A stretch of DNA of 40,670 bases, from positions 1 to 40,670 of the forward strand of contig JAMJFU010000010.1 of NCBI GenBank assembly GCA_023544525.1, given 5' to 3'. Source of the stretch: Anaerolineae bacterium. GTDB lineage: Bacteria; Chloroflexota; Anaerolineae; JAAYZQ01. Shown in pieces: positions 22,390 to 40,670 of this stretch. The notes beneath the pieces are model-generated. The model made no database searches. It saw only the letters and a program-made list of their open reading frames with translations, and was not told where the DNA came from. The stretch's first letter is position 1, and each line of letters begins with the position of its first letter. The position numbers were made by a program, and so were the translations under genes.

Positions 22390-22429
22390 TTGTCCTCCTC
22401 CTTGTGTAGCCTGCAAAGTGGAAAACGGG

Positions 22430-23104
22430 TTACGGACTCACTATCTCTCCTTCAGCCATCTGGATCGAGCGCGTCCCGTAGCTGGCCAGATCGATGGAGT
22501 GGGTCACCAGCAGGGCCGTCACGCCGGTCTCGGTGTGGATGCCGCGGAATAGCTCCATGATTTCGTGTTCGGTGGCCTCGTCCAGATCGCTGGTCGGCTC
22601 GTCGGCCAGAAGCAGTTCCGGCTCGTTCATCAGGGCTCGGGCAATGACCACCCGCTGTTGCTGCCCGCCGGAGAGCTGGCGCGGGAACGATTTGAACTTG
22701 TCGGCCAGGCCCACCTGCTCCAGAAGCTGGGTCGCCCGCTCGTACACGCGCTCCTGGTTCTGCTCGCCGCCAAACATCTTGGGCAGCATGACGTTCTCCA
22801 CGGCGGTCAGCGTCGGCAGCAGGCTGGCAAACTGAAAGACAAAGCCGATCTTTTGGTTGCGCAGCAGGGACTGCTCCTTGTCGGGCAGCTTCCACACCTC
22901 GATGTTGTCCAGGAGGACCTGGCCTGAGGTCGGCCGGGTCAGCCCGGCGACCAGGTTGAGCAGCGTCGTCTTGCCTGAACCTGAGCGTCCGGTGATGACC
23001 ACGAACTCTCCGCGCTCAACGTGCAAGGAGACGTCCCTTACCGCGGGGACGACGACCTCTTTGCTCACCGGATAGATCTTGGAAACTCTATTCAGAGATA
23101 TCAT
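22430..23104 (-). CDS. ABC transporter ATP-binding protein (LolD/MacB type)
   Basis: [55 protein letters not shown]. Confidence 0.94.
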
Positions 23105-23108
23105 GGGC

Positions 23109-24302
23109 TCACTCCCTCATCGAGATGGCCGGATCCTGGAGGCTGATCCTCACGGCCGGGATCAAGGCGGCGACGACGACACCAGCCAGGGCCAGTGCCA
23201 GGGCGCCCAGCCCCAGGGCAGCCAGGCCCAGCGGAGCCGGGATGAGGAAGGGTGTCCCCATCAGGCCGACGATCAGCGTCCGGAACAGGTAGATGGCCAG
23301 GATGGCCACGGCGATGCCGGTGACGCCACCGGCCAGGGCCAGGAGGACGGCCTCGAGTATCAATGACTTTAGGACGGTGGTGCGCCGTGCGCCCAGGGCG
23401 CGCATGACGCCGATGTGCCGCCGCCGCTCGTTGACGACCAACGAAAACACGACGGCGATGAGGGCCATGGCCAGCAGCCAGATGATGCCCAGCAGGGCCA
23501 CCACGCTGTTCAGCAAGCTCAGGAGCTGCTCACGCTGGCCCTTGAACAGCTTGTTGGTCTCCAGAGGCGTCACGCCTGGGATGGCCGCATCGATCTCTGC
23601 AGCTACCTGCTCGACGTTAGCGTCCGTGCTGACTTTGACCATGACCGAGGATATCGTGCGGGGCGGGATGTCCATGACCTTGACTGCCTCCGTGACCGAC
23701 GCGCGCGCGATCTCGAACGCTGTGTCAAAGGTAAAGAACATGCTCTGGTCCAGTCCTGTGCCTGTCGGGTCGAGGCTGCCTGCCAGATCCAGGGCATACC
23801 CGTAGACCAGCAGCACGCCTTCGTCCCTGGGCACGTACACCAGGCTGCCGCCGACCGCCTCCCCCACCTCGAGACCACCGTCGAGGTTCTTCTCCAGCCA
23901 AGGTGTCAGGGTAAAGTCGGTCTCTGGCTCGTAGGCGATGAGGAACATCTCGGGCACGGAGCAGCAGGTCGCCCCGCGCAGTGTGGATAGGTAGAGCTGG
24001 GGTGAGGTCGCTACCACGCCGGGCACGGCCGCAACCTGGTCCTTGATGGTGTCGGGCATCCAGCAGTGGACGGGGATGCCCATCAGCAGCGCGCTCTCCA
24101 GGCGTTGCTCGTGCCCTTCCGGGATGACGATGATGTCCGCGCCCAGCCGCTCCAAGGCCAGCTGCAGGCTGGTATTGGCGCCGCGGATGACCAGCGTGGA
24201 CGAGATGACGAAACCGGCCATCAGCGCCGCGCAGAAAAAGACAACCCAACCACGGAAAGAGTTGCCTGTCGCGTTGCGGATGGCAAGGCGGATCATTTGC
24301 AC
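23109..24302 (-). CDS. ABC transporter permease, FtsX/MacB fold
   Basis: N-terminal TM, large extracytoplasmic domain, three C-terminal TM segments; VVNERRRHIGVMRALGARR; 4 bp from the ATPase gene. Confidence 0.9.
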   Translation of the reverse strand: MQMIRLAIRNATGNSFRGWVVFFCAALMAGFVISSTLVIRGANTSLQLALERLGADIIVIPEGHEQRLESALLMGIPVHCWMPDTIKDQVAAVPGVVATSPQLYLSTLRGATCCSVPEMFLIAYEPETDFTLTPWLEKNLDGGLEVGEAVGGSLVYVPRDEGVLLVYGYALDLAGSLDPTGTGLDQSMFFTFDTAFEIARASVTEAVKVMDIPPRTISSVMVKVSTDANVEQVAAEIDAAIPGVTPLETNKLFKGQREQLLSLLNSVVALLGIIWLLAMALIAVVFSLVVNERRRHIGVMRALGARRTTVLKSLILEAVLLALAGGVTGIAVAILAIYLFRTLIVGLMGTPFLIPAPLGLAALGLGALALALAGVVVAALIPAVRISLQDPAISMRE

Positions 24303-24347
24303 AGAATTGCCTCCTGTACGGAAACTGTGATACCGGCCATGACGATG

Positions 24348-25544
24348 CTATTCTCGCATGGACAATGCCGGTTCTTGCTGGCTGAGCCTCGATGCCGGGA
24401 TCCAGGCTGCCACCGTGACACTCAGCACAGCTAGCGCCAACCCCGCCACGATCAGCCCGGCGAGTATAGGCGCAGGTGGCAGCGTGATCAGGATGCCAGC
24501 GGCTCGGGCGATCTGCTTCTGAAAGAGCCCCGCGGCAAGCACGGCCAGGCCGATGCCGGCCAGGCCCCCTGACAGGGCCAGCACGATCCCTTCGGCCAGC
24601 AGGGTCTGGAGGACCAATCTGCTGGTCGCGCCCAGCGCCCGCAGCGTCCCGATCTCCCGTTGCCGCGCGTTGGCGGCCAGCGAAAAGACCAGGCCCATGA
24701 AGAGCGTCGACAGCAGCCAGGTCAGGCCGGCCAGGGCCAGCACTGTGCGCAACAGGCCGACCATCTGGGCCCGCTGCGTTTGGAAAAAGCCGGTACTCTC
24801 GATCGGTACCACGCCGGGCACCTGTTCCAGGATCCGAACCGCCACCTCGTGGGGGTCGCTGCCCAGCCGGACCTTGACCATGGCGCTGGAGATGCTCTCG
24901 GGCGCTATCTGAAACGGCGGCCGGGGTTGGTTCTGCACCTGCTCCAGGATGGCCAGCGCGGTGTCAAAGCTGACAAACAGGGTTTGGTCGACGTCGCCGC
25001 CCGTCTCCTGCAGGGTCCGCACCAACTTGAGCGGATAACCATAAACCTGCATCTTGTCGCCGCCATCCGGGATCGACACGGCTGCACCGCCAATCGCCTC
25101 GCCCAGGCGCAGGTTGCCAACGGGATCGTGGTCCAGCCAGGGTTTGAGCACAAAGTCGGAGCGCGGATCATAGGCTACCAGGTACATTTCGGGCAAGGCG
25201 CAGTAGGGGCTGTCGGTCAGGGTCGAAAGATAGAGCTGAGGCGTGATGGCCTCCACCCCTTCCACGGCCCTGACCCGATCCATATAGGCCCGGGGCATCC
25301 AGCGAGCGGTGATCATGCCCACCAGGTGCGCACCGTCAAAGTCCTGAGACATCGTGCCCCAGGGGATGACCATGATGTCGGCGCCCATGCGGCTCAGATT
25401 CTGCCTCAGGCCACTCTCTGCGCCGCGCACGACCAGCGTCGCCGACAGGCTCAGGCCGGCCACCAGCGCGGCGCAGACCAGGATGGCCCCGCTCCTGAAC
25501 AGGTTGCCCAGGATGTTTCTCCAGACCAACCTGGCTCTGGTCAA
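24348..25544 (-). CDS. ABC transporter permease, FtsX/MacB fold (paralog)
   Basis: AANARQREIGTLRALGATSRLVLQTLLAEG; same architecture as the downstream permease. Confidence 0.9.
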   Translation of the reverse strand: MTRARLVWRNILGNLFRSGAILVCAALVAGLSLSATLVVRGAESGLRQNLSRMGADIMVIPWGTMSQDFDGAHLVGMITARWMPRAYMDRVRAVEGVEAITPQLYLSTLTDSPYCALPEMYLVAYDPRSDFVLKPWLDHDPVGNLRLGEAIGGAAVSIPDGGDKMQVYGYPLKLVRTLQETGGDVDQTLFVSFDTALAILEQVQNQPRPPFQIAPESISSAMVKVRLGSDPHEVAVRILEQVPGVVPIESTGFFQTQRAQMVGLLRTVLALAGLTWLLSTLFMGLVFSLAANARQREIGTLRALGATSRLVLQTLLAEGIVLALSGGLAGIGLAVLAAGLFQKQIARAAGILITLPPAPILAGLIVAGLALAVLSVTVAAWIPASRLSQQEPALSMRE

Positions 25545-25960
25545 ACGACCTCGGCCTCCCGGCCCCAGGAAAAGACAACGGTCACCAGGCTGATGCCTAT
25601 GACCAGTGCCCCCATAAAGATGAGCGCTGGTTTCATCGTCGAGACGCAGGGCATGTCAGGGTTCATGCACACGCCGATGAGGCTCGTGGGCAAGAGGATG
25701 GCCAAGGCACCCAGCGTTGTGCCGGTGATGCCCAGGATGCGGCGAGATTCTTTGCGCTGGCTAAAGCCCATCATCAGCCCCACAGCCAGCAGGGGCAAGC
25801 CCAGGCCCAGCTCAGCGCGGCCGGTCCAGTGGCACTTCATAGAGATCTGCCGGCCGTCGGCCAGGGTCAACATGCGCCCGGCCGACTCACAGTCGGTGAA
25901 CATGGGTACGACGGCGATGGCGATGGCCAGGATGGCGATTGCGGCAGCTGCAAGTTTCAT
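25541..25960 (-). CDS. DUF4418-like small membrane protein
   Basis: MKLAAAAIAILAIAIAVVPMFTDCES... CHWTGRAELGLGLPLLAVGLMM... CMNPDMPCVSTMKPALIFMGALVIG; four hydrophobic segments; stop overlaps the permease start. Confidence 0.75.
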   Translation of the reverse strand: MKLAAAAIAILAIAIAVVPMFTDCESAGRMLTLADGRQISMKCHWTGRAELGLGLPLLAVGLMMGFSQRKESRRILGITGTTLGALAILLPTSLIGVCMNPDMPCVSTMKPALIFMGALVIGISLVTVVFSWGREAEVV

Positions 25961-25991
25961 TCTTTTTCCCTCCCTTGATTGTGCTTGGTTG

Positions 25992-26020
25992 ATTGTATCG
26001 TGCTTTGGTTCCGAAAGCAA
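25992..26020 (-). promoter_or_regulatory. Promoter TTGCTT-17 bp-TACAAT for the DUF4418-FtsX-FtsX-LolD-cytochrome operon
   Basis: Reverse complement of aagcaa (26015-26020) and attgta (25992-25997); about 30 nt upstream of the DUF4418 start. Confidence 0.6.
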
Positions 26021-26590: not shown

Positions 26591-27085
26591 CTACCAGGCT
26601 ACCACGTGTTCCAGTTTGAGGTCGCCGACGGCGATGGTGACCGGCCGGTGCGACTGGATGGCGTTGCTCGTGTTGCGGTAGAGCACGTAGTACGTGCGCC
26701 CGGGCTCCACGCGATGGTTGTGAAGCCCCATGATGGTCACGTCCACGATCTCGCCCGTGTCTTCGGCGATGAGCATTGGTGCCGTCTCGGAATAGTGCCC
26801 AAAGTTGGCCGCTTTGCCCTCGTCGACGACCCGGTAGCGCAGCTCGACCATGCCGCCGTCAGCGGTCACGGCCAGGAAGGCAAAACGCACGCCGAACTTT
26901 TCCTCGATCTCGCTGTTGACCGGCATGTTGCCCGGCTCCCATTGCGGCTCGGGTCTGAAGGCTTGCCATCCCCAAAGGGAACCACCTACGAGCAGCACCA
27001 GACCCAGAGCCAGGGCAAAGTGGTTGATGTTGAGCCCCATTGGCCCGCGCCAGGCCTTGACTGTAGCTACCGATTTGTTCATCAT
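26591..27085 (-). CDS. Membrane-anchored protein of unknown function
   Basis: N-terminal TM FALALGLVLLVGGSLWGW, then FGVRFAFLAVTADGGMVELRYRVVDEGKAANF...VDVTIMGLHNHRVEPGRTYYVLYRNTSNAIQSHRPVTIAVGDLKLEHVVAW. Confidence 0.75.
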   Translation of the reverse strand: MMNKSVATVKAWRGPMGLNINHFALALGLVLLVGGSLWGWQAFRPEPQWEPGNMPVNSEIEEKFGVRFAFLAVTADGGMVELRYRVVDEGKAANFGHYSETAPMLIAEDTGEIVDVTIMGLHNHRVEPGRTYYVLYRNTSNAIQSHRPVTIAVGDLKLEHVVAW

Positions 27086-27175: not shown

Positions 27176-29515
27176 TTATGGGTTGCGCGAGATGACGGGC
27201 AGGTAGATGGTGAACGTAGCAGCTTGCGCGTCTATCTCTACCGTGGCCGACGCTGTGGGTCCCCAGAAGCCCAAGCTGTCCAGGGCCCGTGCGTAGAAGG
27301 TGTACTCCCCGGTAGGCCAGGCACTGACGTCGACCGTGCCGACCAGCACCTCGTTCGGGGTATCGAATACCCCATCCGCTGCCTCCAGTGGCGTGCCCAT
27401 TCCCTCTCCGGGATCGGCATCGACGAACCATTCCGCTCCAACGACGTTGGACAGGAGGTTGGGATCGCCTGCCGCGCCCGAGATCTCAACGGTCGGCACC
27501 CCGGCGACTGCGATCTCGGCCGTCGCCGTCCTGGCGGCCACGTTGAAGGTGACCGTCAGCGTGGCGATGACGGGTCCTTCGGTGTCTACCAGGCCGCGGT
27601 CGATGGTGATGATTGCCTCACCAAAGGTGGTTCCCCAGTTGCCGGCCGCGTCCAGGCCGTGCACGTACACGGTGTGGTCGCCCTGGGCCAGGTATAGGAA
27701 ACTGGCGACGGGGATGTCAAAGTAGACGCCCTCTGTGATCTCGTCGAACAGGCCGTCCGAGGGGAAGAGATCAAAGCCGCTGCCGTCGGGCCCTATCGTG
27801 TCGATGAACGCTTCGGCATTGGCCAGCAGCGATTGCGCCTCGGCCACCAGGGGATCGGAGATCGTGCCTTCCAGGCGTACGGAAGTCACCGGTGGCGCAC
27901 CAGACAGGTCGAGCAGTGCCGGCGTGAGACTGGCCGCGGAAACTACGGGCCCGCTCTGGTCCAGGGTCAGGGTGATGACGCCCGCTGGCGCGCTCAGGTT
28001 ACCCAGCGCGTCCTCGGCCACGATGGCGATGGGGTGCAGGCCCTCGGCCAGGGTGCTCAGGTCTGTGATGGTCAGCGTGGCGGTCATGGCCGTGATGGGA
28101 TTGTCGATCCGGGCCAGGAGCATCGCTCGCGCGGTAGTGGTGATGGAGTACGTGGCAGCCACGACGTTGTTGCGGCCCGTGCTGTGGTCGTCGCCGGTGG
28201 CCCGCAGGAGCACCGGCTTCGTGCCGTTGCTGGGCTCAGGCGACAGGCTCATGCCCGTTACCCTTGGGCCAGCGTAGTCCAGATTGAGCACTGCCGAGCC
28301 CACCGGCCCCCAACCGTTGGCATCCAGGCCGCGTACGTAGAACACGAGGAAGCCGCTTGGCCAGCTTGCCGGCAGTTCGCCGGCTGCGAACGAGTACGTT
28401 GCTCCACCGCCGCCCATTGTCATGGGAGTTCCACTGCCTGGCGAGCCCACCGTGTTGATAAAGAACTCAGCACTAGTCGCCGCTGGAGTAAAGCCAGCGC
28501 TTAGGGTCACGGGTTCATCGCCCTGCGTCGGGTTGGGACCGACCAGCACGTTGCTGGCCACCGGGCCGGCCGTGGCCGTTGCCGTCGAGACAGCGTTTAG
28601 GAAGGTCATCATGCCGCGGTGCAGGAGCAGGTTCGTGTCATACAGCGCGTAGCGCTGGTCCTGCACAGCCGCAATCGGGATGGTCGCCAGGGCGTCCACC
28701 GTCTGGCCGGCGGCGATGGTGTCGGCCACCACCCCGTAGCCGGCCGGGAGCGGCTGGCCGTCGGAGGCGATGATCTGCTGCTCCAGGCCGAGGAGCCCCA
28801 TCCAGTGGCTCTCCAACCCGGCGTTGACGTAGCGCAGCAGGATCGTCTGGCCAGGGATGACGTCGATGGCGGGCACGGCCGGATAGGCTTGGCCGTTGAT
28901 CAGCCCGTAGCGCGGCGCATACTCGTACAGATTGAAGTTGAGTGGGTCGAGGTTCAAGAGCGGGTCGACTTCACCCAGCACCAGCAGCCATTCGTCGTCG
29001 TAGGTGCCCGGGGCCAGCGTAGGACTCACGACCAGGGCGCCGTAGAGACCCATGGCCACCTGGCGCGGGCCCTCTGCCGTCAGGCCTGCCTCGTAGAGGA
29101 AGGTGCCGCTGTAGGCGAGGGTAAAGCTGTAGGTCGCTGTCCCGCCCGGTGGCACGCCGTCCAGGTCGGGCAGCAGGTCCTGCCCGGGGAAGGCCAGCGC
29201 GACCGTGAAGGGCAGCGAGTTGGTCAGCGTCACCACCATCGTCTCGCCCTCGTTGCCAAGCAGCAGCGGCCCCGGCACCGTGGCCGAGATACCTGCACTG
29301 CTGGCGAAACCCCAGGTGTGGACGAGTGCGCTGTCCGGCATGCTGAGCTCACCGTGCGTGGCCCACAGCTCGCAGGTTGTAGTGCCAAGGCCGTCCGAAG
29401 TGCAACTGCTAGGCGGTAGGTCGGCCATGGCCGGAGCGGCGAAGAGCAGGGATGCCACCGCCAGCAGCAGGAACAGACCGCCCAGGAGAGCCAGGGAACG
29501 GATTCTTGTTCTCAT
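27176..29515 (-). CDS. Multicopper-oxidase-fold protein C, catalytically degenerate, with Ig-like repeats and YLP tail
   Basis: Signal peptide; cupredoxin-like LTNSLPFTVALAFPGQD / YSGTFLYEAGLTAEGPRQVAMGLYGALVV paralogous to the next gene; Ig-like modules; ends FTIYLPVISRNP. Confidence 0.78.
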   Translation of the reverse strand: MRTRIRSLALLGGLFLLLAVASLLFAAPAMADLPPSSCTSDGLGTTTCELWATHGELSMPDSALVHTWGFASSAGISATVPGPLLLGNEGETMVVTLTNSLPFTVALAFPGQDLLPDLDGVPPGGTATYSFTLAYSGTFLYEAGLTAEGPRQVAMGLYGALVVSPTLAPGTYDDEWLLVLGEVDPLLNLDPLNFNLYEYAPRYGLINGQAYPAVPAIDVIPGQTILLRYVNAGLESHWMGLLGLEQQIIASDGQPLPAGYGVVADTIAAGQTVDALATIPIAAVQDQRYALYDTNLLLHRGMMTFLNAVSTATATAGPVASNVLVGPNPTQGDEPVTLSAGFTPAATSAEFFINTVGSPGSGTPMTMGGGGATYSFAAGELPASWPSGFLVFYVRGLDANGWGPVGSAVLNLDYAGPRVTGMSLSPEPSNGTKPVLLRATGDDHSTGRNNVVAATYSITTTARAMLLARIDNPITAMTATLTITDLSTLAEGLHPIAIVAEDALGNLSAPAGVITLTLDQSGPVVSAASLTPALLDLSGAPPVTSVRLEGTISDPLVAEAQSLLANAEAFIDTIGPDGSGFDLFPSDGLFDEITEGVYFDIPVASFLYLAQGDHTVYVHGLDAAGNWGTTFGEAIITIDRGLVDTEGPVIATLTVTFNVAARTATAEIAVAGVPTVEISGAAGDPNLLSNVVGAEWFVDADPGEGMGTPLEAADGVFDTPNEVLVGTVDVSAWPTGEYTFYARALDSLGFWGPTASATVEIDAQAATFTIYLPVISRNP

Positions 29516-29586
29516 GTCAGTGTTCTCCATTCTCTGTGGACTGCCGAGAGAAAGTCCGTTAGTTCTTTTCGTCTTCATTGGGCACC

Positions 29587-30948
29587 TCATGGGCAGTCGT
29601 TGGGCAGCGGCGGGTCGATGCGGGTGAAGGTGATGTGGCCGCTGAGCACCACGCCCCAGGCGGTGATCTGCTGCAGGGCATGGTTATGGCTGATGTGATA
29701 GTATTCGCCGCAGGCGTTCAGAGCCTGGTGACCTACCGGCAGCAGGTCGGTGGCGCCCAGGTAGGGGCTACCGCTGTAGAAGGTGCCGAAGGTCAGGTTC
29801 TGAAGCTGCGGGATGGTCACCGGGATGGGATTCTCTGTCGGATGCCAGCCCTCCACGTCGGTCCAGGCGAACATCTCGTCGGTGGTCTGGCCCGGGCCGA
29901 GGGTGATGGTGAACCGTTCATAGGACAGGTCCTGGCCTGCGCCGTCGATGAGCACGTTGCCGTCCCGGGCGATGATCCGCCCGTGGTTGCCGTGGGGATG
30001 GTGGGGATAGTTCTCGGTGCCCACGCTCAGGTAGCGGATCAAGGCCGGATGGGGATGGTAGGCGTCTCCGGCGGCCGGATCGTCGTTGAAGGGGTTGATG
30101 TGGATCAACGAGCCGTAGGGCTGGTCCGGCAGCCATTCGGCGCCATTGGGTGCGATGGTGTCGGGGAAGCTGCGGCCGTTGATGTTCCAGTAGCGCGAGG
30201 TATAGTTGTTCATGTCGTAGGGCAGGCCTTGCTCTACGGCCATGTGCAGCATGGGGTCGATCTCGGAAAAGATCAGCAGGAACTCCTCATCCGGCATGAA
30301 CTCGGTGGTGTAGGTCACTGTCCCGCTGACCACAACCTCGTTGTAGGCAAAGTTGGGACCAGCCAGCGGCCGGACGACCAGCGCGCCAAAGAGGCCCATG
30401 TTGACCTGGATGCCCGGCTCGGTGCCGCTCTCGTAGAGGTAGGTGCCTGGTTGGGAAGCGACAAAGCTGTAGGTCATGCTGCCGCCGTTGGCCGTTGCCA
30501 CGGGCGCCAGGGAGATGAGTTCTCCCGTCCCAGCGTCTACCACCGGCGTGGATGGCACGCCGTTGGCCAGCACGTCCTCCTGCCCAGGGAAGATGAGCGA
30601 CACGTCGTGGTCCAGCGTGTTGTTCACGACGATGGTCACCGTCATCCCTTCCGTGACGCACAGGGTCGGGCTCGGATGCTGGAACGGATCGCCGCCGGCG
30701 CTAAAGCCCCACATGTACACCCTGTTGCCATCCGGCAGGCTGATCGTGCCTGTCATAGTGCTCAGGCTAAAGATGGCGGATTTGCCATCCGGGGATGCAT
30801 TCTCAGTGCACACGATGCCGTGGGGCGGCATGTCTTCGTGCCCGGCCGTTACGATCCCACCGCTGCCAACGATGACCAGCAGCACAGCCGCCAGCACCAG
30901 GGGCAGGGACAGCAGTAGGACGTTCCTTCTAAGGCTTGAGGATTTCAT
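29587..30948 (-). CDS. Multicopper oxidase-like protein B (retains last-domain ligand motifs only)
   Basis: Sec signal peptide; YPHHPHGNHGRIIARDG and CGEYYHISHNHALQQITAWG; degenerate domain 1 (FPGQED, YLYESGTEPGIQVNMGLFGALVV). Confidence 0.85.
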   Translation of the reverse strand: MKSSSLRRNVLLLSLPLVLAAVLLVIVGSGGIVTAGHEDMPPHGIVCTENASPDGKSAIFSLSTMTGTISLPDGNRVYMWGFSAGGDPFQHPSPTLCVTEGMTVTIVVNNTLDHDVSLIFPGQEDVLANGVPSTPVVDAGTGELISLAPVATANGGSMTYSFVASQPGTYLYESGTEPGIQVNMGLFGALVVRPLAGPNFAYNEVVVSGTVTYTTEFMPDEEFLLIFSEIDPMLHMAVEQGLPYDMNNYTSRYWNINGRSFPDTIAPNGAEWLPDQPYGSLIHINPFNDDPAAGDAYHPHPALIRYLSVGTENYPHHPHGNHGRIIARDGNVLIDGAGQDLSYERFTITLGPGQTTDEMFAWTDVEGWHPTENPIPVTIPQLQNLTFGTFYSGSPYLGATDLLPVGHQALNACGEYYHISHNHALQQITAWGVVLSGHITFTRIDPPLPNDCP

Positions 30949-30968
30949 TGGTCTCACCTCACTCTTCA

Positions 30969-32360
30969 TCACGCACCCCCCCAGTCATTGGCCGCGGCCT
31001 GGTCGCCCAGCGTGCCGGCGGGGTAGATGTGGACTTCGGTCATGGGTCCGCCGAGGCCGGGCATGCCCGGATTGCTCAGGTGGGCCAGGTTGCGGCTGAA
31101 CAGCTTCAGCACGGTCTTCTCTGTCACGTCCGGCGCGACAAAGATGGCGTCGACACTCTGTCCCGCACCGATGTGTACGCTATCGGTCAGGAAGCTCAGG
31201 TCGTTTCCGCCCCGGCCGCGCAGGAAGGTGGCGTCGCGGCCCACGACCCGCATCTTGATGCCGGTCAGGCGCATCGACTGCTCGACGTAACCCAGGTTGA
31301 TGAAACGGATCAGCACCCGGTCGCCTGAATTGCAGGTGATCAGCGACGACAGTGGCTGGTACTTCAGCTCCGGCCGGCCGGCAGGCGGGATCAAGTCACC
31401 GGTAGCGGAATCTGTACCACCGCCATTCGGAGCGATGGTATCAGGATAGGCCCGGCCGTTCATCAGGTAGAGGTCGGGATTGTAGTCGCTCCACTCGGGC
31501 AACTGCACGTGCGAGTCGCACCAGTGGGCGAGGGACCAGACCTCGTTCATGACCAGGGCAAACTCGCGGTCGTAGGCCGTCGAACCATCGCCGTCATTGT
31601 AGACGTAGCCCATGGGTGCTGCGGCGTCTAGGCTGCCGCCCAGGCGCGCTATGGGCGCCGAGGCTCCTCCCAGGAAGTTCTGCTTGGGCCGGATGTAGAC
31701 CCCGCCGACCATGCCCATGTGCACGTGCTCCGTCTCCTCAAAGTGGCAGTGGAACATATAGGTGCCTGGGTCCCGGGCCCGGTAGAAGTAGGTCAGGTCG
31801 CGGGCGATGGGCACCCCCACCGACGAGTGCGGCTCGCCGTCAAAGATGGGGATGGCGTTGCGGAAGCCATGGAAGTGGAGCGTGTGGGCGTCGATCAGGT
31901 CTGGCCGGATCTGCAAGCCCAGGTTGGTCAGCTTCAGCGTAAAGTCCGTCGTATTGTCATGCGGATCCAGTGGGTTCTCGTTGCGCCACTCGTCCAGCCA
32001 GAACATGGGCGACGTGAGTTGGCACTTCATCTTCTGACTAAAGATCAGGTCGCGGTTGCCCTCTATCGAGGTCACGTCGCGGAAGCCAAAGATGTAGGTC
32101 GTCAGCCCGGGGGGCGCCAGGTTGTCGGGGTGGTAGGGCGGGTTTGCCCCCGGCAGGTAGATCCAGCCGTCGGTGGCGGCAAAGTGCCGGTAGACACCTA
32201 TGATGGGATCCTGGGCGGCGGGCGACGCTTCCACGACTCTGTCCGGTTTGAGCAGGGCCTTGGGCACCACTGCACCGGCCGCCGTGACGCCCACCAGGCC
32301 GGCACCCAGTTTGAGTAGTTGCCTCCGGCTGAGTTCTCGCGTCAGGTTCTCTTTTCTCAT
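30969..32360 (-). CDS. Multicopper oxidase-like protein A (retains domain-1 T1/T2/T3 ligand motifs only), Tat signal
   Basis: Tat motif SRRQLLKLGAGLVGVTAAGA; DAHTLHFHGFRN; PGTYMFHCHFEETEHVHMGMVGGVYIRP; C-terminal domain lacks HxxHxH and HCH motifs. Confidence 0.88.
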   Translation of the reverse strand: MRKENLTRELSRRQLLKLGAGLVGVTAAGAVVPKALLKPDRVVEASPAAQDPIIGVYRHFAATDGWIYLPGANPPYHPDNLAPPGLTTYIFGFRDVTSIEGNRDLIFSQKMKCQLTSPMFWLDEWRNENPLDPHDNTTDFTLKLTNLGLQIRPDLIDAHTLHFHGFRNAIPIFDGEPHSSVGVPIARDLTYFYRARDPGTYMFHCHFEETEHVHMGMVGGVYIRPKQNFLGGASAPIARLGGSLDAAAPMGYVYNDGDGSTAYDREFALVMNEVWSLAHWCDSHVQLPEWSDYNPDLYLMNGRAYPDTIAPNGGGTDSATGDLIPPAGRPELKYQPLSSLITCNSGDRVLIRFINLGYVEQSMRLTGIKMRVVGRDATFLRGRGGNDLSFLTDSVHIGAGQSVDAIFVAPDVTEKTVLKLFSRNLAHLSNPGMPGLGGPMTEVHIYPAGTLGDQAAANDWGGA

Positions 32361-32438: not shown

Positions 32439-35400
32439 CTACCAGGGCATCGTACCGCCGCCAAAGCCGGTAATGCTCGCCCCGTCCGGTGTCGTCAGAA
32501 CAGGCCATTCGAACCACAGGCCGATGCGGCCAAACCCCGAGTAGTACGGCCAGGGGTTATCCCCGGCGCTGAGGTCGGTCCGGCCGATGAGCAGGCCGTT
32601 TTGATAGACCTCGACCAGGCCTCCCCGCGTCGCCCGCGCGCCCAAGGCGTCGCCGGCGGCGAGGCTCAGCCCGCCAAAGGTCGCGTGGACCTGCCACACG
32701 TTGCCGGGCGACAGGGTCGCGACCTGTATCGTCCCGGCGGTGGCATCGTACCCGACGTCGATCAGGTAGGTGTCCATGCCACGCAGTTCGCCCGCATCCA
32801 GGCCGCCCACTTTGAGCAGCAGGTCCTGGCGCGTGGCGGTCTCGCTGGCAGCGCCAAAGATAAAGTAGGCCTCTTGGTCGACGCTGAAGAGGTCCGCGTT
32901 CCAGTAGATGCTGCCACTGTCCAGCACCTCGATGCCGGTTGCTTCGTCAAGGACAAAGCTCTCTGTCTCGCCGCCCCACTCGACCACGGTTCCCGTACCG
33001 CCGTGGGAGATGATGGGCAGCCAGACGGTAAAGTCAGCCTGGATCGGCGCCGCAGGTTGCACCGCTTCCGCGGCCTGGACAACCGCCGCCGTGGGGAAGA
33101 GGATGGGCGTGTTGGGGAAGTTGGCGCCGGTCTCGTCAGCACCTATCTCGAAACTGCCCTGCGACGGACGCGGCTGGCGGTCATAGTCCTGGTTGGGGGC
33201 TAGGATGCCGCCCTCCTCGTCGATGCCCATGTTGATGGCCGGAGAGCCGTCCTGCAGGTGGTAGTCACCCAGCAGCGTGACAGGCAGCTCCACGGCCACC
33301 ATGTCGGCGCCGACAAAGTTGGGGTTGCCCCGCCAGGGGAAGACCCGCACGGTAGAGTCATACTCCGCCATGACCAGGGGATCGACGCCTACCATGTTCG
33401 AGGCATCGGGCACGCCGTTCAGGACCTGCATCAGCGTGTAGGTGGGGCTTAGCTGGCCAGCGTTGCCCGCGACACCCAGATCCCAATAGAGAATGGGGCT
33501 GGGGTCTCCGTCGAGGCCGATGCCGGCCACGCCGTCGCCGGTCCAGGTGCCGGCCCGGTTGTCCCAGAAGATGTTGTTGAACATCAGCGCGTCGCCAAAG
33601 ATGGGTGCGTCGGCTGGCAGCGTTGCCTGCAGCAGATCGCTGTTCCTGCTGCTGCTAAAGCCGGCGGGTGCCGCCAGACCGTTGCTGGTCATAGCCGTGG
33701 CCGTGGTCAGGTTGTTCATGACCGTATTGTTGTAGAAACGCACGTCGGGCGCGTCGTTGAGTGAGACACCACCGCCTTCGTGGGTCGAGACGTTGTTGGC
33801 GATGATGTTGTTGTAGACGTTGAAGGGAAAGTTGCCGGCCATCAGGAAGCGCAGGCCGCCACCGTCGTCGTTGGCCAGGTTGCCCTGGAGCAGGTTGGCA
33901 TAGACGTCCACCGGCCCCGCGCCGGGCGAGAGTAGCGCCGGATCGGCCGGCAGCTCGCCGGCGATCATGACGCCGCCGCCCTCGTCGTAGGAGCGGTTAA
34001 AGTAGATGCGGTTGTGGTGGATGCTGCCACCGGGGCTTTCGCCATAGTGGCTGATGCCACCGCCGTACTCTGCGGAAAAGTTGCCGCAGATGTCGTTGGC
34101 CGCAATCTCATAGTTGTCGGTACCGGCAAAGACGCCGATGGCGCCGGCCAGGTTCGTCCCGCCGTTGCCCACGATGCGGTTGTGGGCGATGAGGATGTCG
34201 TCGTTATGGTTGTCCTTAAAGGGCACGTCCCGATCGGGTGTCCCTAGGCGGATGGCGCCGGCGTAGGCGCCGCCGTTGTTCTCGATCTGGTTGTTGGTGA
34301 TGCGCAGGAAGTTGGCATAGCCGTTGACAAAGATGCCGCCACCCTGGATCACCACCTCGGCGGGCACGCCTGGGATCGGCTCCCCGCCGACCTGGTTGAG
34401 GTTGTTGGGGAAGCCCTGCTGGTCGCCACCCTGGATCTTGAAGCCGTCGATAGAGACGGCAAAGTCATTGCTGAACTCGAGGTCCTCGGCAAAGACGGTC
34501 ACGACTGGCCCCTCGTAGATGCGCGGGTTGCCGTCGCCGTCTTCCGGGCTGCCGTCCCAGCCAGGGTAGCCGTCGAAGCCGCGGTTGAGCCAGATGTCGC
34601 CCACGTTCAAGCGCCACTCTTCAGCATAGGCCTCGTTGCCGCCTACGCCACGGCCGTCCAGGATGGTGCCCTGGATGCCGGTGCCGTCGGTGTAGACCCC
34701 ACCTGGGCCGACACCCTGCAGCTTGACCGGCGAGTAGATGACCGGGTTCTCCAGGTAGAAGCCCAGCGGGTTGGTGAACGGTATCACCGCACCGGGATAC
34801 ACCACGACCAGGTCATCCCCGTCCGATGCCCAGGCATCGTCGAGGGCGGCCTGAATCGGCCCAAGGCCGGGCCGGGGATAGGCCGCTTGGTCATAGGTAT
34901 GACCTGGCCCTACCTCGTAGAGGTTGGGCAGGTAGGCGGGTCGCTGGCCCACGCGTCCACGCAAGACGTGGATCGTCAGGCCGTTGACCGTGGTCTGGTT
35001 GTTGCCGGCTACGATGTTGAGCTGGCGTGGGCCGGCATCGACGTTACGGCCGACAGTAGCCACGATCTCGCGATCGGTCCAGCTCACGACGTCCAGCCTG
35101 TTGTCGTCCAGCCAGACGGCGGAGCGCGTATTGTCAGGATCGTAGACGCCAAAGCCCAGCCCGTAGATGGTCAGGTTGCCCTGATCCTCGATGTAGGGCT
35201 TGTCCACGGCAAAGATCTGGGGCGTCGTGTCCTCCAGTTTGCAGGCTGCGATCTGGCTCACATTGGACGCGGGGTTCCAGATGAGGGCCCCGTTCTGCGT
35301 CGGCGCCAGGTCAGACGGCACGAGCACGCCGGGATAGCTCTCGAAGGTGGTGCCGATGGAGCGGTAGCCGGGATGGTATCTTTCGTTGAAGGCGCCGGGC

Positions 35401-38294
35401 TGGCCCGGGTCGTTGCCATAGATATAATACATGCTGGCGTTCATGCCAGAGGGCGTCGGCGTGTTGTAGGTTGCGGCCGAGGGCAGGAGCACCTCGTACA
35501 CCCCGTGGAAGTCGGAGTGGACCGTGTGCACCAGCCGCCCGGTAAAGTCATAGATGCCCATGGGCATGTTGGCCATTCCGCCTTTTTCGCCAAAGAAGAG
35601 CTCAAAGGGGTTGGTCGAGACATTCAGGTCGTCGATGATGTAACCGCGCCAGCGGCCGGGAGGTGGTACCCTGGTCCACAGCGTAAAGATGGGCGCCACA
35701 CCCTTTTGATCGCGGACCTCGACCAACTTGACATTGCACAGAGGCATCTCCTGGCCCTCGAAGCGGCTGCCGCCCACCTCGACGTAACCCGGGTTCTCGA
35801 CAGCATCGAGGCCATCAGGCTCGATCCCGGCCACGTCGACGACGTGGAGCGGCCCTGCGCAGGCCGGCGGTGGGATCTCGGGATAGAACACGTCGCCATC
35901 ATAGATGTTGACGTCTTCCTCCTTGGTCACCTCGTACAGCGGCCGGCCCGTGTACGGGTCGTCCGGGATGACCACCTCTACCAGGTAGTCGCCCACGGGG
36001 AGGGGTATTGGCGCAGGCAGTGAAATGCCGTCGGTACCGGTAAAGATCTCGCCAAAGCCCCAGTTGCCGGGCAGCTCCTGCTGTCCCTGGCTGAACTGGA
36101 CGCCCATGGGTGGCCCTTCCAGGCAGTCGTAATCGCCGGTTGCCGGCGGGAAGGACGGAAAGTCCACCGGCTCGCCGTAGACGTCCAGCGGCTGGCAGTT
36201 CTTGGGCCGCACAAAATCCTCGGTGGTTGTGGTGGCCAGCAGAGGGCCCTTTGCATATGAGCCATCTGCATCGAACACAAAGCTGCCGTCGGGGTTCTTC
36301 ACCGTGGCATAGAGCCGCATCTGCAGGTTGGGGATGCCCGGCTGCCAGGGTTCGGCACCGGCGTAGCGGGCGTCGTCTTCGGCCCGCACGGTGTCAAAGA
36401 ACACTGTGCCGGCGATATCGCCGTGGGTCCCCGGCTCGTAGGGATGCACGCCCCAGTCCACGCGGCCCCACTGGCTAAAGATGGGCAGCACGCCCAGGTC
36501 GACGATATTGCCCAGGACCGTCGTCTCCTCTGTGGCGTTGCTGGCCTGGTAGGTCACGCCCGTGGTGTGGTAGAGGTCGCTGTAGGCCTCCAGCACCATC
36601 CAGGAGCTCATGGGGTAGCCCTTTTCCAGGGCCCAGTTGCCATTTGCGTCGGTCACCGAGGCGATGGACATGCGATCGATCTCGGTATTGTCCCGGTCGC
36701 GCAGCACGACGACATAGTCGGGCACGCCCGGCTCGCCGGGATCCTGCCGGCCGTTCTCATTGAGGTCCCTGAAGACCGTGCCATACCACTTGGTGAACCA
36801 GTTGGTCATGGTCCGCACGCCGATGTCGGTCGTCTCACCCGCCTGTACCGTGACCTGCACAAAGTCCAGGATATAGTGCTGGTTCAGGTCCCAGTAAGAC
36901 AGGAAATAGTCGCCGGGCGGCACGTTGTCGATCTGGAAGCTGCCGTCGGCCTCTCCCATCCCGACCCAGACCGCTGTATCCCCGCCTTGCAGGCTGTTCA
37001 GCGACAGCCAGGGGTAGGCGATCGGTTCGTCCAGCTTGGCGCCCATGAGCCCGCCCCAGATGTCGGCATTGTGGGGTAACCCGCCCTGGGAGGGCGTGTA
37101 GGTGGTGATGCCCATGATCACGCCCTTGATGCTGCCGTAGGTGGCGTCTGTTACCGTCAGCGTGTCCGTGGGCCGGACAAAACCAAAGATGGTCCAGGGG
37201 AAGGGCTCACCGGCCACGATGAACTCGTTGTCCAGGCCGGTGCCGGCCTCCTGCAGCCAGGTGTCCCAGCCGTGGGAGCCCTCCAGCGTCGTAGTCTGGA
37301 CCCAGTCCGTCCCGTCGGGTGGGGTCACCAGCACGTCGTAGCGGATGGTGCCGATGTTGGGGATGTTGATGATGCCATAATCGTCGCTCAGGCACTCACC
37401 GCCGATCTTGGTGATATTCAGCGGCATGCCGTCGGCGTCGACCAGGACCTCGCCGGTGTCCGGGTCCTTCTCATACTCGGTGCACAGCGGGTTGCCAAAG
37501 AGGTCGGCCGTGATCTCGCCGGCGATGTCGTTGAGGCTGACCCGGAAGCCGGCCATGCTCGTCGGACCGGGTGCCGGCTGCTCGACAGGTGCGTCGAACT
37601 GGCTGTTGGTCATCGAGTTGTCGTTAAAGACCTTGATGACCATCGAGGCCGGCGGCAGCGGGTGGGGATGCACGGCGACTGTGACCAGGCCCGGGTCCAC
37701 CAGGGGCACGGTAAAGTGCTCGCCGTCGACCTTGTAGCCGTCGGCCAGGACCGAGATCAGGTACTTGCCGGGCGGGAGGGTGATGCCCGTCGTCTCGTTC
37801 AACTCGTCCTGGGTGCCCTGGGTGACGATGGGCGCCCAGCCAGGGGTGGTATGCACCCCGGGCCACTCGCAGCCCTCGGGATAGTTCAGGTTGCGGTCGA
37901 TCGGGTTGGTATTGGTCGGGTAGTCTGTGTAGGCCCAGCAGTCAGTGGTGTCGAAGGGGTCGCCGGTGTTGTCCTCCACGATCTGGAACTCGTACTCGGT
38001 CACCAGATCCCCTGCGTACACCGCGCCACCCAAAGCCTTGAGCTCGGTGCGTGCGGCGACCACCCGCAGGGTGAGGGTGTTCGTCTGGGCTGGGGCCTGG
38101 ATGGCCGCAGCCTCGATGGGAGTCCTGGCCAGCATCTCGCCTGCCTCTGCCCCTGGCACCGCGGCCACAGCGCGTGGCATGGTCAACAGCAGCGGTATCA
38201 ATAACAACACTGGCAGTAGGGTCAGCAGAATGGCCCAGGCTGGGTGCCTTGGCCGGCTCTCGGAGCCGGCGTCGGCTTGCACTTTTCGCATCAT
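32439..38294 (-). CDS. Giant (1951 aa) secreted modular protein: SdrD_B/Cna-B-like, IPT/TIG-like, right-handed beta-helix, C-terminal LamG/ConA-like region
   Basis: Signal peptide AILLTLLPVLLLIPLLLTMPRAVAA; SdrD_B GTVFRDLNENGRQDPGEPGVPDYVVVLRD; IPT-like KPYIEDQGNLTIYGLGFGVYDPDNTRSAVWLDD; repeated NNxI..N beta-helix rungs (ITNNQIENNGG, AHNRIVGNGG, HHNRIYFNRS, YNNIIANN). Confidence 0.88.
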   Translation of the reverse strand: MMRKVQADAGSESRPRHPAWAILLTLLPVLLLIPLLLTMPRAVAAVPGAEAGEMLARTPIEAAAIQAPAQTNTLTLRVVAARTELKALGGAVYAGDLVTEYEFQIVEDNTGDPFDTTDCWAYTDYPTNTNPIDRNLNYPEGCEWPGVHTTPGWAPIVTQGTQDELNETTGITLPPGKYLISVLADGYKVDGEHFTVPLVDPGLVTVAVHPHPLPPASMVIKVFNDNSMTNSQFDAPVEQPAPGPTSMAGFRVSLNDIAGEITADLFGNPLCTEYEKDPDTGEVLVDADGMPLNITKIGGECLSDDYGIINIPNIGTIRYDVLVTPPDGTDWVQTTTLEGSHGWDTWLQEAGTGLDNEFIVAGEPFPWTIFGFVRPTDTLTVTDATYGSIKGVIMGITTYTPSQGGLPHNADIWGGLMGAKLDEPIAYPWLSLNSLQGGDTAVWVGMGEADGSFQIDNVPPGDYFLSYWDLNQHYILDFVQVTVQAGETTDIGVRTMTNWFTKWYGTVFRDLNENGRQDPGEPGVPDYVVVLRDRDNTEIDRMSIASVTDANGNWALEKGYPMSSWMVLEAYSDLYHTTGVTYQASNATEETTVLGNIVDLGVLPIFSQWGRVDWGVHPYEPGTHGDIAGTVFFDTVRAEDDARYAGAEPWQPGIPNLQMRLYATVKNPDGSFVFDADGSYAKGPLLATTTTEDFVRPKNCQPLDVYGEPVDFPSFPPATGDYDCLEGPPMGVQFSQGQQELPGNWGFGEIFTGTDGISLPAPIPLPVGDYLVEVVIPDDPYTGRPLYEVTKEEDVNIYDGDVFYPEIPPPACAGPLHVVDVAGIEPDGLDAVENPGYVEVGGSRFEGQEMPLCNVKLVEVRDQKGVAPIFTLWTRVPPPGRWRGYIIDDLNVSTNPFELFFGEKGGMANMPMGIYDFTGRLVHTVHSDFHGVYEVLLPSAATYNTPTPSGMNASMYYIYGNDPGQPGAFNERYHPGYRSIGTTFESYPGVLVPSDLAPTQNGALIWNPASNVSQIAACKLEDTTPQIFAVDKPYIEDQGNLTIYGLGFGVYDPDNTRSAVWLDDNRLDVVSWTDREIVATVGRNVDAGPRQLNIVAGNNQTTVNGLTIHVLRGRVGQRPAYLPNLYEVGPGHTYDQAAYPRPGLGPIQAALDDAWASDGDDLVVVYPGAVIPFTNPLGFYLENPVIYSPVKLQGVGPGGVYTDGTGIQGTILDGRGVGGNEAYAEEWRLNVGDIWLNRGFDGYPGWDGSPEDGDGNPRIYEGPVVTVFAEDLEFSNDFAVSIDGFKIQGGDQQGFPNNLNQVGGEPIPGVPAEVVIQGGGIFVNGYANFLRITNNQIENNGGAYAGAIRLGTPDRDVPFKDNHNDDILIAHNRIVGNGGTNLAGAIGVFAGTDNYEIAANDICGNFSAEYGGGISHYGESPGGSIHHNRIYFNRSYDEGGGVMIAGELPADPALLSPGAGPVDVYANLLQGNLANDDGGGLRFLMAGNFPFNVYNNIIANNVSTHEGGGVSLNDAPDVRFYNNTVMNNLTTATAMTSNGLAAPAGFSSSRNSDLLQATLPADAPIFGDALMFNNIFWDNRAGTWTGDGVAGIGLDGDPSPILYWDLGVAGNAGQLSPTYTLMQVLNGVPDASNMVGVDPLVMAEYDSTVRVFPWRGNPNFVGADMVAVELPVTLLGDYHLQDGSPAINMGIDEEGGILAPNQDYDRQPRPSQGSFEIGADETGANFPNTPILFPTAAVVQAAEAVQPAAPIQADFTVWLPIISHGGTGTVVEWGGETESFVLDEATGIEVLDSGSIYWNADLFSVDQEAYFIFGAASETATRQDLLLKVGGLDAGELRGMDTYLIDVGYDATAGTIQVATLSPGNVWQVHATFGGLSLAAGDALGARATRGGLVEVYQNGLLIGRTDLSAGDNPWPYYSGFGRIGLWFEWPVLTTPDGASITGFGGGTMPW

Positions 38295-38586: not shown

Positions 38587-39000
38587 CTATATGGCTGCTG
38601 CATTGGCTGCAGAGCTGCTGCGGTGGTCCAAGCCCAGGGCTTTGGGCACGATGCGCCGCATCTGGGCTGCGCGTACTGGTTTCTCCAGGCAGCAGTAGAC
38701 GGCCAGCCGTTGGGCGGCCAGATCGGTCTCCTGGCCGCGAAAGGCGGTGATCCAGATTACTACAGTCTCCTGGTTTGTCTTTCTGATCATCTCGGTGAGT
38801 TCCTGGCCGTCGATCCCAGGCATTCGCAGATCGGTGATCACCAGCGCATAGGGGGTCTCTGTAAGCAAACCCGCGGCCTCCAGGCCGTTGCGGGCGATGT
38901 GCACTTTGCACCAAGGCCCCAACGCTTGCAGGGTCTCTTGGAGGAAAAAGAGCACTTGCTCGTCATCGTCAACCACCAGGATACATTTTTGTTCAGCCAC
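38587..39000 (-). CDS. Stand-alone receiver-domain response regulator (probable GTG start)
   Basis: VAEQKCILVVDDDEQVLFFLQETLQALG...YALVITDLRMPGIDGQEL...VYCCLEKPVRAAQMRRIV. Confidence 0.82.
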   Translation of the reverse strand: MAEQKCILVVDDDEQVLFFLQETLQALGPWCKVHIARNGLEAAGLLTETPYALVITDLRMPGIDGQELTEMIRKTNQETVVIWITAFRGQETDLAAQRLAVYCCLEKPVRAAQMRRIVPKALGLDHRSSSAANAAAI

Positions 39001-39227
39001 AGCAACGTACCATCTCCTCGGAGATAGGCCAAAATGCGAGGCATGGCAGCATCGCTGCCATTGTACCCGTGCCATTGGGTTGGCACATACCCGGACCAGC
39101 AGAGCTACCTACACGTATCGCTCAAGTATGATTATAGCAGGGGAAGTACTTGCCAACCGCCGGGGAAGGGGTGGATTGTCTCCGGATCCGGTTGGAAGGG
39201 TTGGGAAAGTTGGTTAAGTTGGAAGGC

Positions 39228-39953
39228 CTAGGCTTTGAACGTATAGCCGACGCCGCGCACATTCAAGATGTGGCGCGGTCGCGAGGGGTTCTCCTCCACC
39301 TTGTGGCGGAGGCGATAGATGTACCACTTGATGATATCCCTGGCTTCCTGGAGGTGGTCGCATTCATAGCTGCGCACCACTTCGACCAGTTCTGGAGGCG
39401 GCACCACCCGCTGGGCATTCTGCATGAGATGGACCAGCAGTTCGAACTCGCATACCGTCAGGTCGAGGGGTTCCTCGCGGCAGAATGCCTGGCGATCCGT
39501 AAGGTTGACAGTGAAGATCCCTTGCTGCAACAGGTCCCCAGTTGTCATGGCCTGCTCTGCCTCGACGTCATGTGCCCTGTGCCGTTTGCTGAGGACCTCG
39601 TCCACTGCCTGGCGCACTTCTGCGGCCCGTACCGGTTTGAGCAGGTAGGCGTCGATGCCTTCGCTAATAGCGGTCCGGGCCGAATCGAGGGAGCCGTGGC
39701 CCGTCAGGATGATCCGTGCGGTCTGTGGCCAACGCCAACTGATGGCCTCCAGGACACGGAGGCCGTCTACGCGGCCGCCCAGTCTCAGGTCTAGGACCGC
39801 CAGGTCAAAGGACCGGTCGCGCAAGCAGTCCAGGGCTTCTTCGCCACTGCAAACCAGTGTGACATCATGCCCTTCGTTCTCGAGGGTCTCGCCCAGGAAG
39901 AAGCGTATCCCTTCGTCGTCGTCTACGATCAGGGTCCGGATAGGCTTGGTCAT
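39228..39953 (-). CDS. Response regulator, REC plus winged-helix DNA-binding domain
   Basis: LIVDDDEGIRFFLGETLENEGHDV, LAVLDLRLGG, LLKPVRAAEV; C-terminal DIIKWYIYRLRHKVEENPSRPRHILNVRGVGYTF. Confidence 0.92.
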   Translation of the reverse strand: MTKPIRTLIVDDDEGIRFFLGETLENEGHDVTLVCSGEEALDCLRDRSFDLAVLDLRLGGRVDGLRVLEAISWRWPQTARIILTGHGSLDSARTAISEGIDAYLLKPVRAAEVRQAVDEVLSKRHRAHDVEAEQAMTTGDLLQQGIFTVNLTDRQAFCREEPLDLTVCEFELLVHLMQNAQRVVPPPELVEVVRSYECDHLQEARDIIKWYIYRLRHKVEENPSRPRHILNVRGVGYTFKA

Positions 39954-39998
39954 CGATGAATCTCCATGGTTTTCCTGTGTCTCGGAGGGCCCGGCCAG

Positions 39999-40670
39999 CT
40001 AGGCAGGAAGCCACACCTTGAATGTGGTGCCCTCTCCAACACGGCTCTGGACCTCGATGAGGCCGCCGTGTTGTTGGGCGATGTTCTGGCTGATAAACAG
40101 ACCCAAACCCAGGCCATCAGGCTTGGTAGTATGGAACGGTTCAAAGAGGCGCTCCAGCGCCTCAGGCGACATCCCTGTGCCTGTATCGGCGAAGGAGATG
40201 CTCACCCCCGAGGGCTGCCGAGTCCTCTGGGCGGAAACCATTAGCCGGCCGCCATGGGGCATGGCGTCGATGGCGTTGGTGACCAGGTTCATAAAGATCT
40301 GCTGCATGGCGTCGGGCATCAGCTCCAACCGTGGCAGCTCCGAATCTTGCTCCCAAACCACTTCGATGGCGCCGGTTTCACAGCGCTTTTGACAGAGGAC
40401 CAGCACGTGGTCCAACAGCATGTTGATATCGGTAAGCTGCTTTGCCTCCAAGCGTGAGCGGCGGTGCAGTTCCCGCAACTGGGACACTACCCTGGCCGCG
40501 CGCCCTGATGCGGAGGAAGCCACTTTGATGTACTTGCGTGGCTCCCGGCCGGCGTCCAGGGCCTCGAGGGCCAGGTCGAGGCAGCCGACGACCGACTGCA
40601 GCGGATTGTTGATCTCGTGGGCCAGCGATGCTGCCAGTTGGGCGGCCATGGCCAGCCGCTCGGCCTGGAC
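39999..40670 (-). CDS. Sensor histidine kinase, C-terminal part (runs off the window end)
   Basis: Open frame to 40670 (VQAERLAMAAQLAASLAHEINNPLQSVVGCLDLAL); HATPase_c QIFMNLVTNAIDAMPHGG...FADTGTGMSPEALERLFEPFHTTKPDGLGLGLFISQNIAQQHGG. Confidence 0.93.
   Translation of the reverse strand, partial: VQAERLAMAAQLAASLAHEINNPLQSVVGCLDLALEALDAGREPRKYIKVASSASGRAARVVSQLRELHRRSRLEAKQLTDINMLLDHVLVLCQKRCETGAIEVVWEQDSELPRLELMPDAMQQIFMNLVTNAIDAMPHGGRLMVSAQRTRQPSGVSISFADTGTGMSPEALERLFEPFHTTKPDGLGLGLFISQNIAQQHGGLIEVQSRVGEGTTFKVWLPA

Follow-up and report, generated by a model that had tools for sequence, protein, structure and literature searches.

Two adjacent paralogs in a conserved five-gene cassette divide between them one set of multicopper oxidase ligands

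Can two neighboring genes, each encoding both cupredoxin domains of a two-domain multicopper oxidase but with copper ligands in only one domain, be the parts of a single enzyme, or are they damaged oxidases? This question is raised by genes A and B of an Anaerolineae bacterium, which lie side by side in the window analyzed here, a contig of 40,670 nt (C11) from a 4.5-Mb draft genome that comprises 515 contigs. The initial annotation had located both genes and proposed, from their histidine motifs, that A supplies the type-1 (T1) copper site and half of the trinuclear cluster (TNC) while B supplies the other half. The positions, strands and translations that it gave proved exact, and every motif that it quoted is present.

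Copper ligands of the three paralogs in the window

Ligand columns were read by aligning A, B and C, the product of the gene that follows B, to intact single-chain two-domain oxidases from related genomes (G351, G300 and G244), and the resulting features are collected in Table 1. In domain 1 of A the ligand columns read H159, H162, H164, H204, C205, H206, H212 and M217, of which H159, C205, H212 and M217 make up a complete T1 site in the N-terminal domain, while H162, H164, H204 and H206 are TNC histidines. Domain 2 of A holds no ligand, and its four positions read T/S/R/K, A/D/T/P, Y/F and R. B is the reverse, with the other four TNC histidines in domain 2 (H317, H319, H421 and H423) and none in domain 1, where HCH has given way to E/Q-S-G in nearly every sequence (78/78 for S and G) and the second T1 histidine to Q in 78/78. 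Both halves of this partition had been claimed from motifs, and the alignment to intact oxidases upholds them; a search of the aligned columns for the absent motifs elsewhere in A or B found none. In Pfam, A matches Cu-oxidase_2/_3, and both B and C match Cu-oxidase_3.

Since the T1 ligands and four TNC histidines are on A and the other four TNC histidines are on B, the two proteins jointly carry one complete ligand set, the sum being exactly one T1 site and one eight-histidine TNC. Neither chain alone has the full set, and by ligand count no homomer of A or of B could supply eight TNC histidines. Measured against the multicopper oxidase superfamily, A and B have its domains and fold, and only A and B together have its T1 ligands and eight TNC histidines. 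Measured against the type C two-domain oxidases, each chain has two cupredoxin domains and A has the N-terminal T1 site, while none of A, B and C has ligands in both of its domains.

C, which the initial annotation had left unused, is a third paralog with no ligand in either domain. In domain 1 it reads E/Q-A-G for HCH and Q for the second T1 histidine, and its N-terminus has a hydrophobic segment. The N-terminal hydrophobic segment of B is a probable Sec signal.

Table 1. Features of the cassette and its surroundings, in window coordinates
Feature	Position	Strand	Basis or remark
Response regulator, OmpR-type regulator and histidine kinase, upstream of D	38587..40649	-	
Gene D, 1951 aa, giant secreted protein, SdrD_B / beta-helix-like; conserved first gene	32439..38294	-	
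Gene A, 463 aa, Tat signal, two cupredoxin domains	30969..32360	-	Pfam, alignment, model
A domain 1 HTLHFHG: H159 (T1), H162 and H164 (TNC)	31866..31886	-	Alignment to intact two-domain oxidases
A domain 1 HCHFEETEHVHMGM: H204 and H206 (TNC), C205, H212 and M217 (T1)	31710..31751	-	Alignment
A domain 2 HxHG position, degenerate (INLGYVEQSMRLTG)	31260..31301	-	Alignment
A domain 2 HxH position, degenerate (FSRNLAH)	31080..31100	-	Alignment
Gene B, 453 aa, N-terminal hydrophobic segment, two cupredoxin domains	29587..30948	-	Pfam, alignment, model
B domain 1 HxxHxHG position, degenerate (VSLIFPG)	30583..30603	-	Alignment
B domain 1 HCHxxxxxHxxxxM position, degenerate (ESGTEPGIQVNMGL)	30391..30432	-	Alignment
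B domain 2 HHPHGNH: H317 and H319 (TNC)	29983..30003	-	Aligned to 3g5w HTHGH
B domain 2 HISHNH: H421 and H423 (TNC)	29680..29697	-	
Gene C, 804 aa: two ligand-free cupredoxin domains, Ig-like repeats, LPVISRNP tail	27176..29590	-	Pfam, alignment
C cupredoxin core, both domains without any copper ligand	28556..29401	-	Alignment
Gene E, 164 aa, small membrane-anchored protein; conserved last core gene	26591..27085	-	
DUF4418, two FtsX permeases and ABC ATPase	22430..26020	-	Adjoin cassette in close relatives only

Genes D, A, B, C and E form an operon, a co-directed run on the minus strand headed by D, in which A, B and C are separated by gaps of ∼20 nt or overlap briefly. Pfam finds SdrD_B-type and carbohydrate-binding-like domains in D, and its repetitive C-terminal half reads as beta-helix-like; E has no match in Pfam or NCBIfam. 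Past E on the same strand, the DUF4418, FtsX and ABC genes are followed by a gene for a multihaem c-type cytochrome of 802 aa with five CxxCH motifs and an fn3 domain (20008-22416), which is absent from the recurrent neighbors of the cassette. A YLPVIxR/WLPIISH-like motif, possibly an anchoring or sorting signal, is common to C, this cytochrome and D, and is C-terminal in the first two.

Distribution of the cassette and conservation of the partition

A single pattern scan of 85,462 species genomes yielded 80 loci, in Chloroflexota, Actinomycetota, Methylococcaceae and Myxococcota, so that the cassette occurs in at least four bacterial phyla; its bearers include isolates of Methylobacter tundripaludum, Cryobacterium and Micromonospora. 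B follows A directly at 79/79 loci with room for it, across a median gap of ∼13 nt, and C follows B directly at 71/72 loci, the exception being L124. D lies upstream of A wherever enough upstream sequence exists (L096 has only 1.3 kb). Among 399 Chloroflexota genomes, A was found at 10 loci in 9 genomes, the window's own included, directly before B in 10/10, with D in front where the contig permits and C and E behind. Among 398 Actinomycetota genomes, A was found in three, with B alongside at all loci; one of these (G401) is locus L131 of the species-genome scan, and the other two (G497 and G610) hold diverged copies in which the order D-A-B(-C-E) and the ligand partition are unchanged. A homolog of A occurring without B, the case that would have told against a shared site, was thus sought among the 399 Chloroflexota genomes, the 398 Actinomycetota genomes and the 79 loci with room, and none was seen. 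Within the cassette family, no A-B fusion gene was found in the 80 loci, where long apparent reading frames in G+C-rich genomes were treated as frame artefacts.

The ligand partition is fixed across these genomes, in 81 sequences of A, 78 of B and 71 of C. In A, H212 and M217 are invariant (81/81), HCH is present in 81/81 except for its first histidine (80/81), and the four TNC histidines are present in 81/81, one of them in 80/81. In B, H317 and H319 are invariant in 78/78 and H421 and H423 in 77/77. The conservation of H159, H162, H164 and H204-H206 of A is partly built in by the scan patterns, TYM[YF]HCH and HT[LVI]H[FW]HGF; this bias touches neither H212 and M217 of A nor any residue of B or C, and the pattern-linked ligands of A are equally conserved in loci that were found without the patterns. 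With ligand states fixed across phyla, chance or decay is ruled out as the source of the missing ligands. Since the four invariant or nearly invariant TNC histidines of each protein would be dispensable for A or B alone, we count them in favor of a site shared by the two.

Genes of two-component systems lie near 25-27 of the 80 loci, CopC-CopD genes near 20 and SCO1 genes near two, the latter two kinds suggesting a copper supply; taken with the export signals, these neighbors fit regulated extracellular copper loading. That A, B and C could all be pseudoenzymes, serving as structural proteins of the cell surface, would agree with the ligand-free C and with the giant surface proteins encoded next door, but it is very improbable given T1 and TNC ligands that are invariant across phyla and the CopC-CopD and SCO1 genes nearby. 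It is also improbable that A and B have separate functions, with A serving as a type-1 blue-copper electron carrier, for which its single-domain T1 site would suffice, and B as a protein with a mononuclear copper or zinc site, since its four histidines could hold one metal. A carrier would have no use for the four TNC histidines that A retains, A and B are never found apart, and a natural fusion (G185, below) has the same complementary pattern in one chain.

Several further features of these loci were recorded. One contig (G246:C98; L061 and L062, and Oscillochloris sp. ZM17-4, L127) carries two tandem D-A-B-C-E copies. D orthologs (L071-L150) measure 1700-2600 aa in most complete copies, and 417 positions are conserved in ≥90% of 21 sequences across phyla, most densely in the repetitive region 1350-1580; the linkage of D to the cassette is as tight as that of A and B. 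Second copies of E occur in L092, L094, L097 and others, and in some cases E is fused to an additional membrane region. A subtilase (S8), possibly a processing protease, lies downstream of the cassette in ∼31 loci (e.g. L129:16332-18983, L093:18163-21192 and L094:17372-19516), and some of these carry Ig-like repeats resembling those of C. Extra C-like matches downstream in Methylobacter and Cryobacterium, considered as a fourth paralog, proved to be such subtilases with similar Ig-like repeats and no further paralog.

Phylogeny, independent split forms and predicted structures

The 60-row tree resolves A, B and C as three separate, fully supported clades, with B and C as sisters. Outside the cassette family, complementary loss was seen in two other arrangements. 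G320 and G327 hold adjacent genes of 375-390 aa, one of which keeps the ligands of domain 1 and the other those of domain 2, though the loss is less complete, as the A-like protein retains HEH in domain 2. G185 holds a reading frame of 764 aa in which two units are naturally fused; the first unit has ligands in its domain 1 alone, and the second in its domain 2 alone. These forms resemble A and B in the placement of the ligands that remain, in domain 1 of one unit and in domain 2 of its partner, and differ in their independent origin and less complete losses. The halves of G185 are each other's closest relatives in the tree, although gene conversion between them could mimic a recent duplication there. 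In AU tests, joining A with the A-like rows of G320/G327 was rejected (p 0.004), as was joining A with these rows plus the first half of G185 (p 0.002), and joining the A-like rows with the first half of G185 was weakly rejected (p 0.035). A single origin of all split forms is therefore rejected, and the complementary split appears to have had at least three origins. The loci examined for G320, G327 and G185 showed no D, C or E of the cassette. A further homolog of the two-domain oxidase family of G320, near position 548900 of G339:C3, has a reading frame that is broken before domain 2, perhaps through an error in sequencing or because the gene is a pseudogene.

Single-chain AlphaFold2 models of A (pLDDT 80.5, pTM 0.82) and B (pLDDT 81.9, pTM 0.80) have 2zwn and 3g5w as their best two-domain fold matches (Foldseek, TM by target 0.69-0.75), and 3g5w is also the top sequence profile match of A. 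In each model the ligand-free domain is the confident one, and the low-confidence stretches inside domains fall mostly in the ligand-bearing domain (A 171-178; B 385-400 and 403-411). In models of single chains, such uncertain ligand-bearing domains would be compatible with an absent partner, though no proof of one.

In paired alignments, strong covariation is most frequent in the block of A domain 1 against B domain 2, and the top pairs are close neighbors of the copper-binding motifs in both proteins (A 169-192 and 207; B 322 and 418-441). There, 6.6-9.7% of pairs exceed the 99th percentile versus 0.3-2.9% in other combinations, which makes it the only one of the nine domain-1/domain-2 site combinations that stands well above background. 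When near relatives were re-paired as a control, 4.2% (sd 1.3) remained versus 6.1% observed, and with a reduced set 2.3% (sd 0.8) versus 3.9%, placing the signal ∼1.5-2 SD above the control. Because the signal drops under this re-pairing, the covariation between A and B is partly phylogenetic; we regard it as real and as modest backing for a shared site, and have set it aside as proof of an interface. No clear covariation was seen in paired alignments between A domain 2 and C domain 1, or between B domain 1 and C domain 2.

Proposed enzyme and its relation to known oxidases

Two-domain oxidases are trimers whose TNC residues come from two protomers, and in type C the T1 site is in the N-terminal domain (PMC13151041; PMC3192119). 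The initial annotation had likened A and B to a two-domain oxidase distributed over two chains. The likeness stands and can be narrowed to a homotrimeric type C oxidase as the parent, and the assignment of T1 and half of the cluster to A and the other half to B is sustained by the ligand table. The limit to two chains has been amended: a dead third paralog, C, is retained in 71/72 loci, and the partition therefore probably involves three. We consider it reasonably likely that A, B and C are three subunits of one extracytoplasmic oxidase of the two-domain type, descended from a homotrimeric type C ancestor, so that the cassette probably encodes a mixed three-part enzyme instead of one of the usual three identical parts.

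Such an enzyme could have arisen as follows. In the homotrimeric ancestor, each TNC would have lain where domain 1 of a protomer meets domain 2 of its neighbor; two duplications of its gene would then have given three chains, of which only the interface of A domain 1 with B domain 2 retained ligands. The T1 copper of A (H159, C205, H212 and M217) would accept electrons from the substrate, and these would pass via A H204-C205-H206 to a TNC held by H162, H164, H204 and H206 of A and H317, H319, H421 and H423 of B, where O2 would be reduced to water. C would close the pseudo-threefold ring, leaving two dead interfaces, and its Ig-like tail may anchor the complex to the giant surface protein D. 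We would thus expect a complex of A1B1C1 stoichiometry at the cell surface, with four coppers per complex and oxidase activity. Whether its substrate is a metal or a phenol was not decided by any evidence in the searched literature or the neighboring genes.

An alternative in which A and B share the TNC as a heterodimer or a mixed trimer (e.g. ABB), with C as a separate structural or anchoring cupredoxin paralog, is unlikely. The partition itself concerns A and B only, the fused or paired relatives G185, G320 and G327 have just two units, and C evolves faster and carries repeats. C could be bound elsewhere than in the ring. Against this, C retains both cupredoxin domains and its place after B in 71/72 loci, and the known two-domain oxidases are trimers (PMC13151041). 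For the most specific form of the three-subunit reading, an obligate A/B/C heterotrimer with one in-trans trinuclear site, docked on D within a widespread five-gene machine for extracellular oxidation, and an independent, unfused parallel to the evolution of ceruloplasmin from a homotrimer, we hold belief and doubt to be evenly balanced.

The search of the literature, outside which most subscription journals fall, returned no heteromeric or split multicopper oxidase and no description of such a system. Among the known enzymes, six-domain oxidases, ceruloplasmin for example, are believed to derive from a triplicated two-domain oxidase after the loss of two of its three sites, and copper nitrite reductase (NirK) has a single type-2 copper, only three interfacial histidines, and HCA instead of HCH at the T1 cysteine. 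The proposed complex would resemble NirK as a two-domain trimer with T1 in domain 1 and copper at the subunit interface, and would resemble ceruloplasmin, hephaestin and the bacterial and algal six-domain forms in having six cupredoxin domains, a single TNC and otherwise dead interfaces. Identity with NirK is ruled out by the HCH of A and the eight TNC histidines of A and B. In six-domain oxidases one of three TNC sites survives, between domains 1 and 6 or 2 and 3 (PMC3600357), and in the cassette, by ligand count, one TNC can form from A and B; the former are one polypeptide, whereas the latter has three adjacent genes of two domains each.

If the three-subunit reading is correct, the cassette would be a living version of the triplication step with its units still in separate genes, in which the order of duplication, loss and specialization becomes directly testable, and it would be a multicopper oxidase whose trinuclear center requires two different gene products. 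The cassette also marks a putative surface system of five genes, conserved across at least four phyla, whose members would be called damaged oxidases by single-gene annotation.

The type C oxidases themselves (3g5w from Nitrosomonas europaea and 2zwn from a metagenome) share with A and B taken together the two domains, the T1 site in domain 1, and four TNC histidines in domain 1 (HxH, HCH) and four in domain 2 (HxH, HxH). They differ in having one gene, one type of chain and three equal sites, whereas the cassette spreads its ligands over two chains, has a dead third and can form at most one site. An ordinary single-chain two-domain oxidase is also encoded in the window's own genome (G000:C24:8931-9149, L003), where its neighbors, as named by sequence reading only, are a predicted ZIP-type metal transporter and an MntR/DtxR-like regulator.
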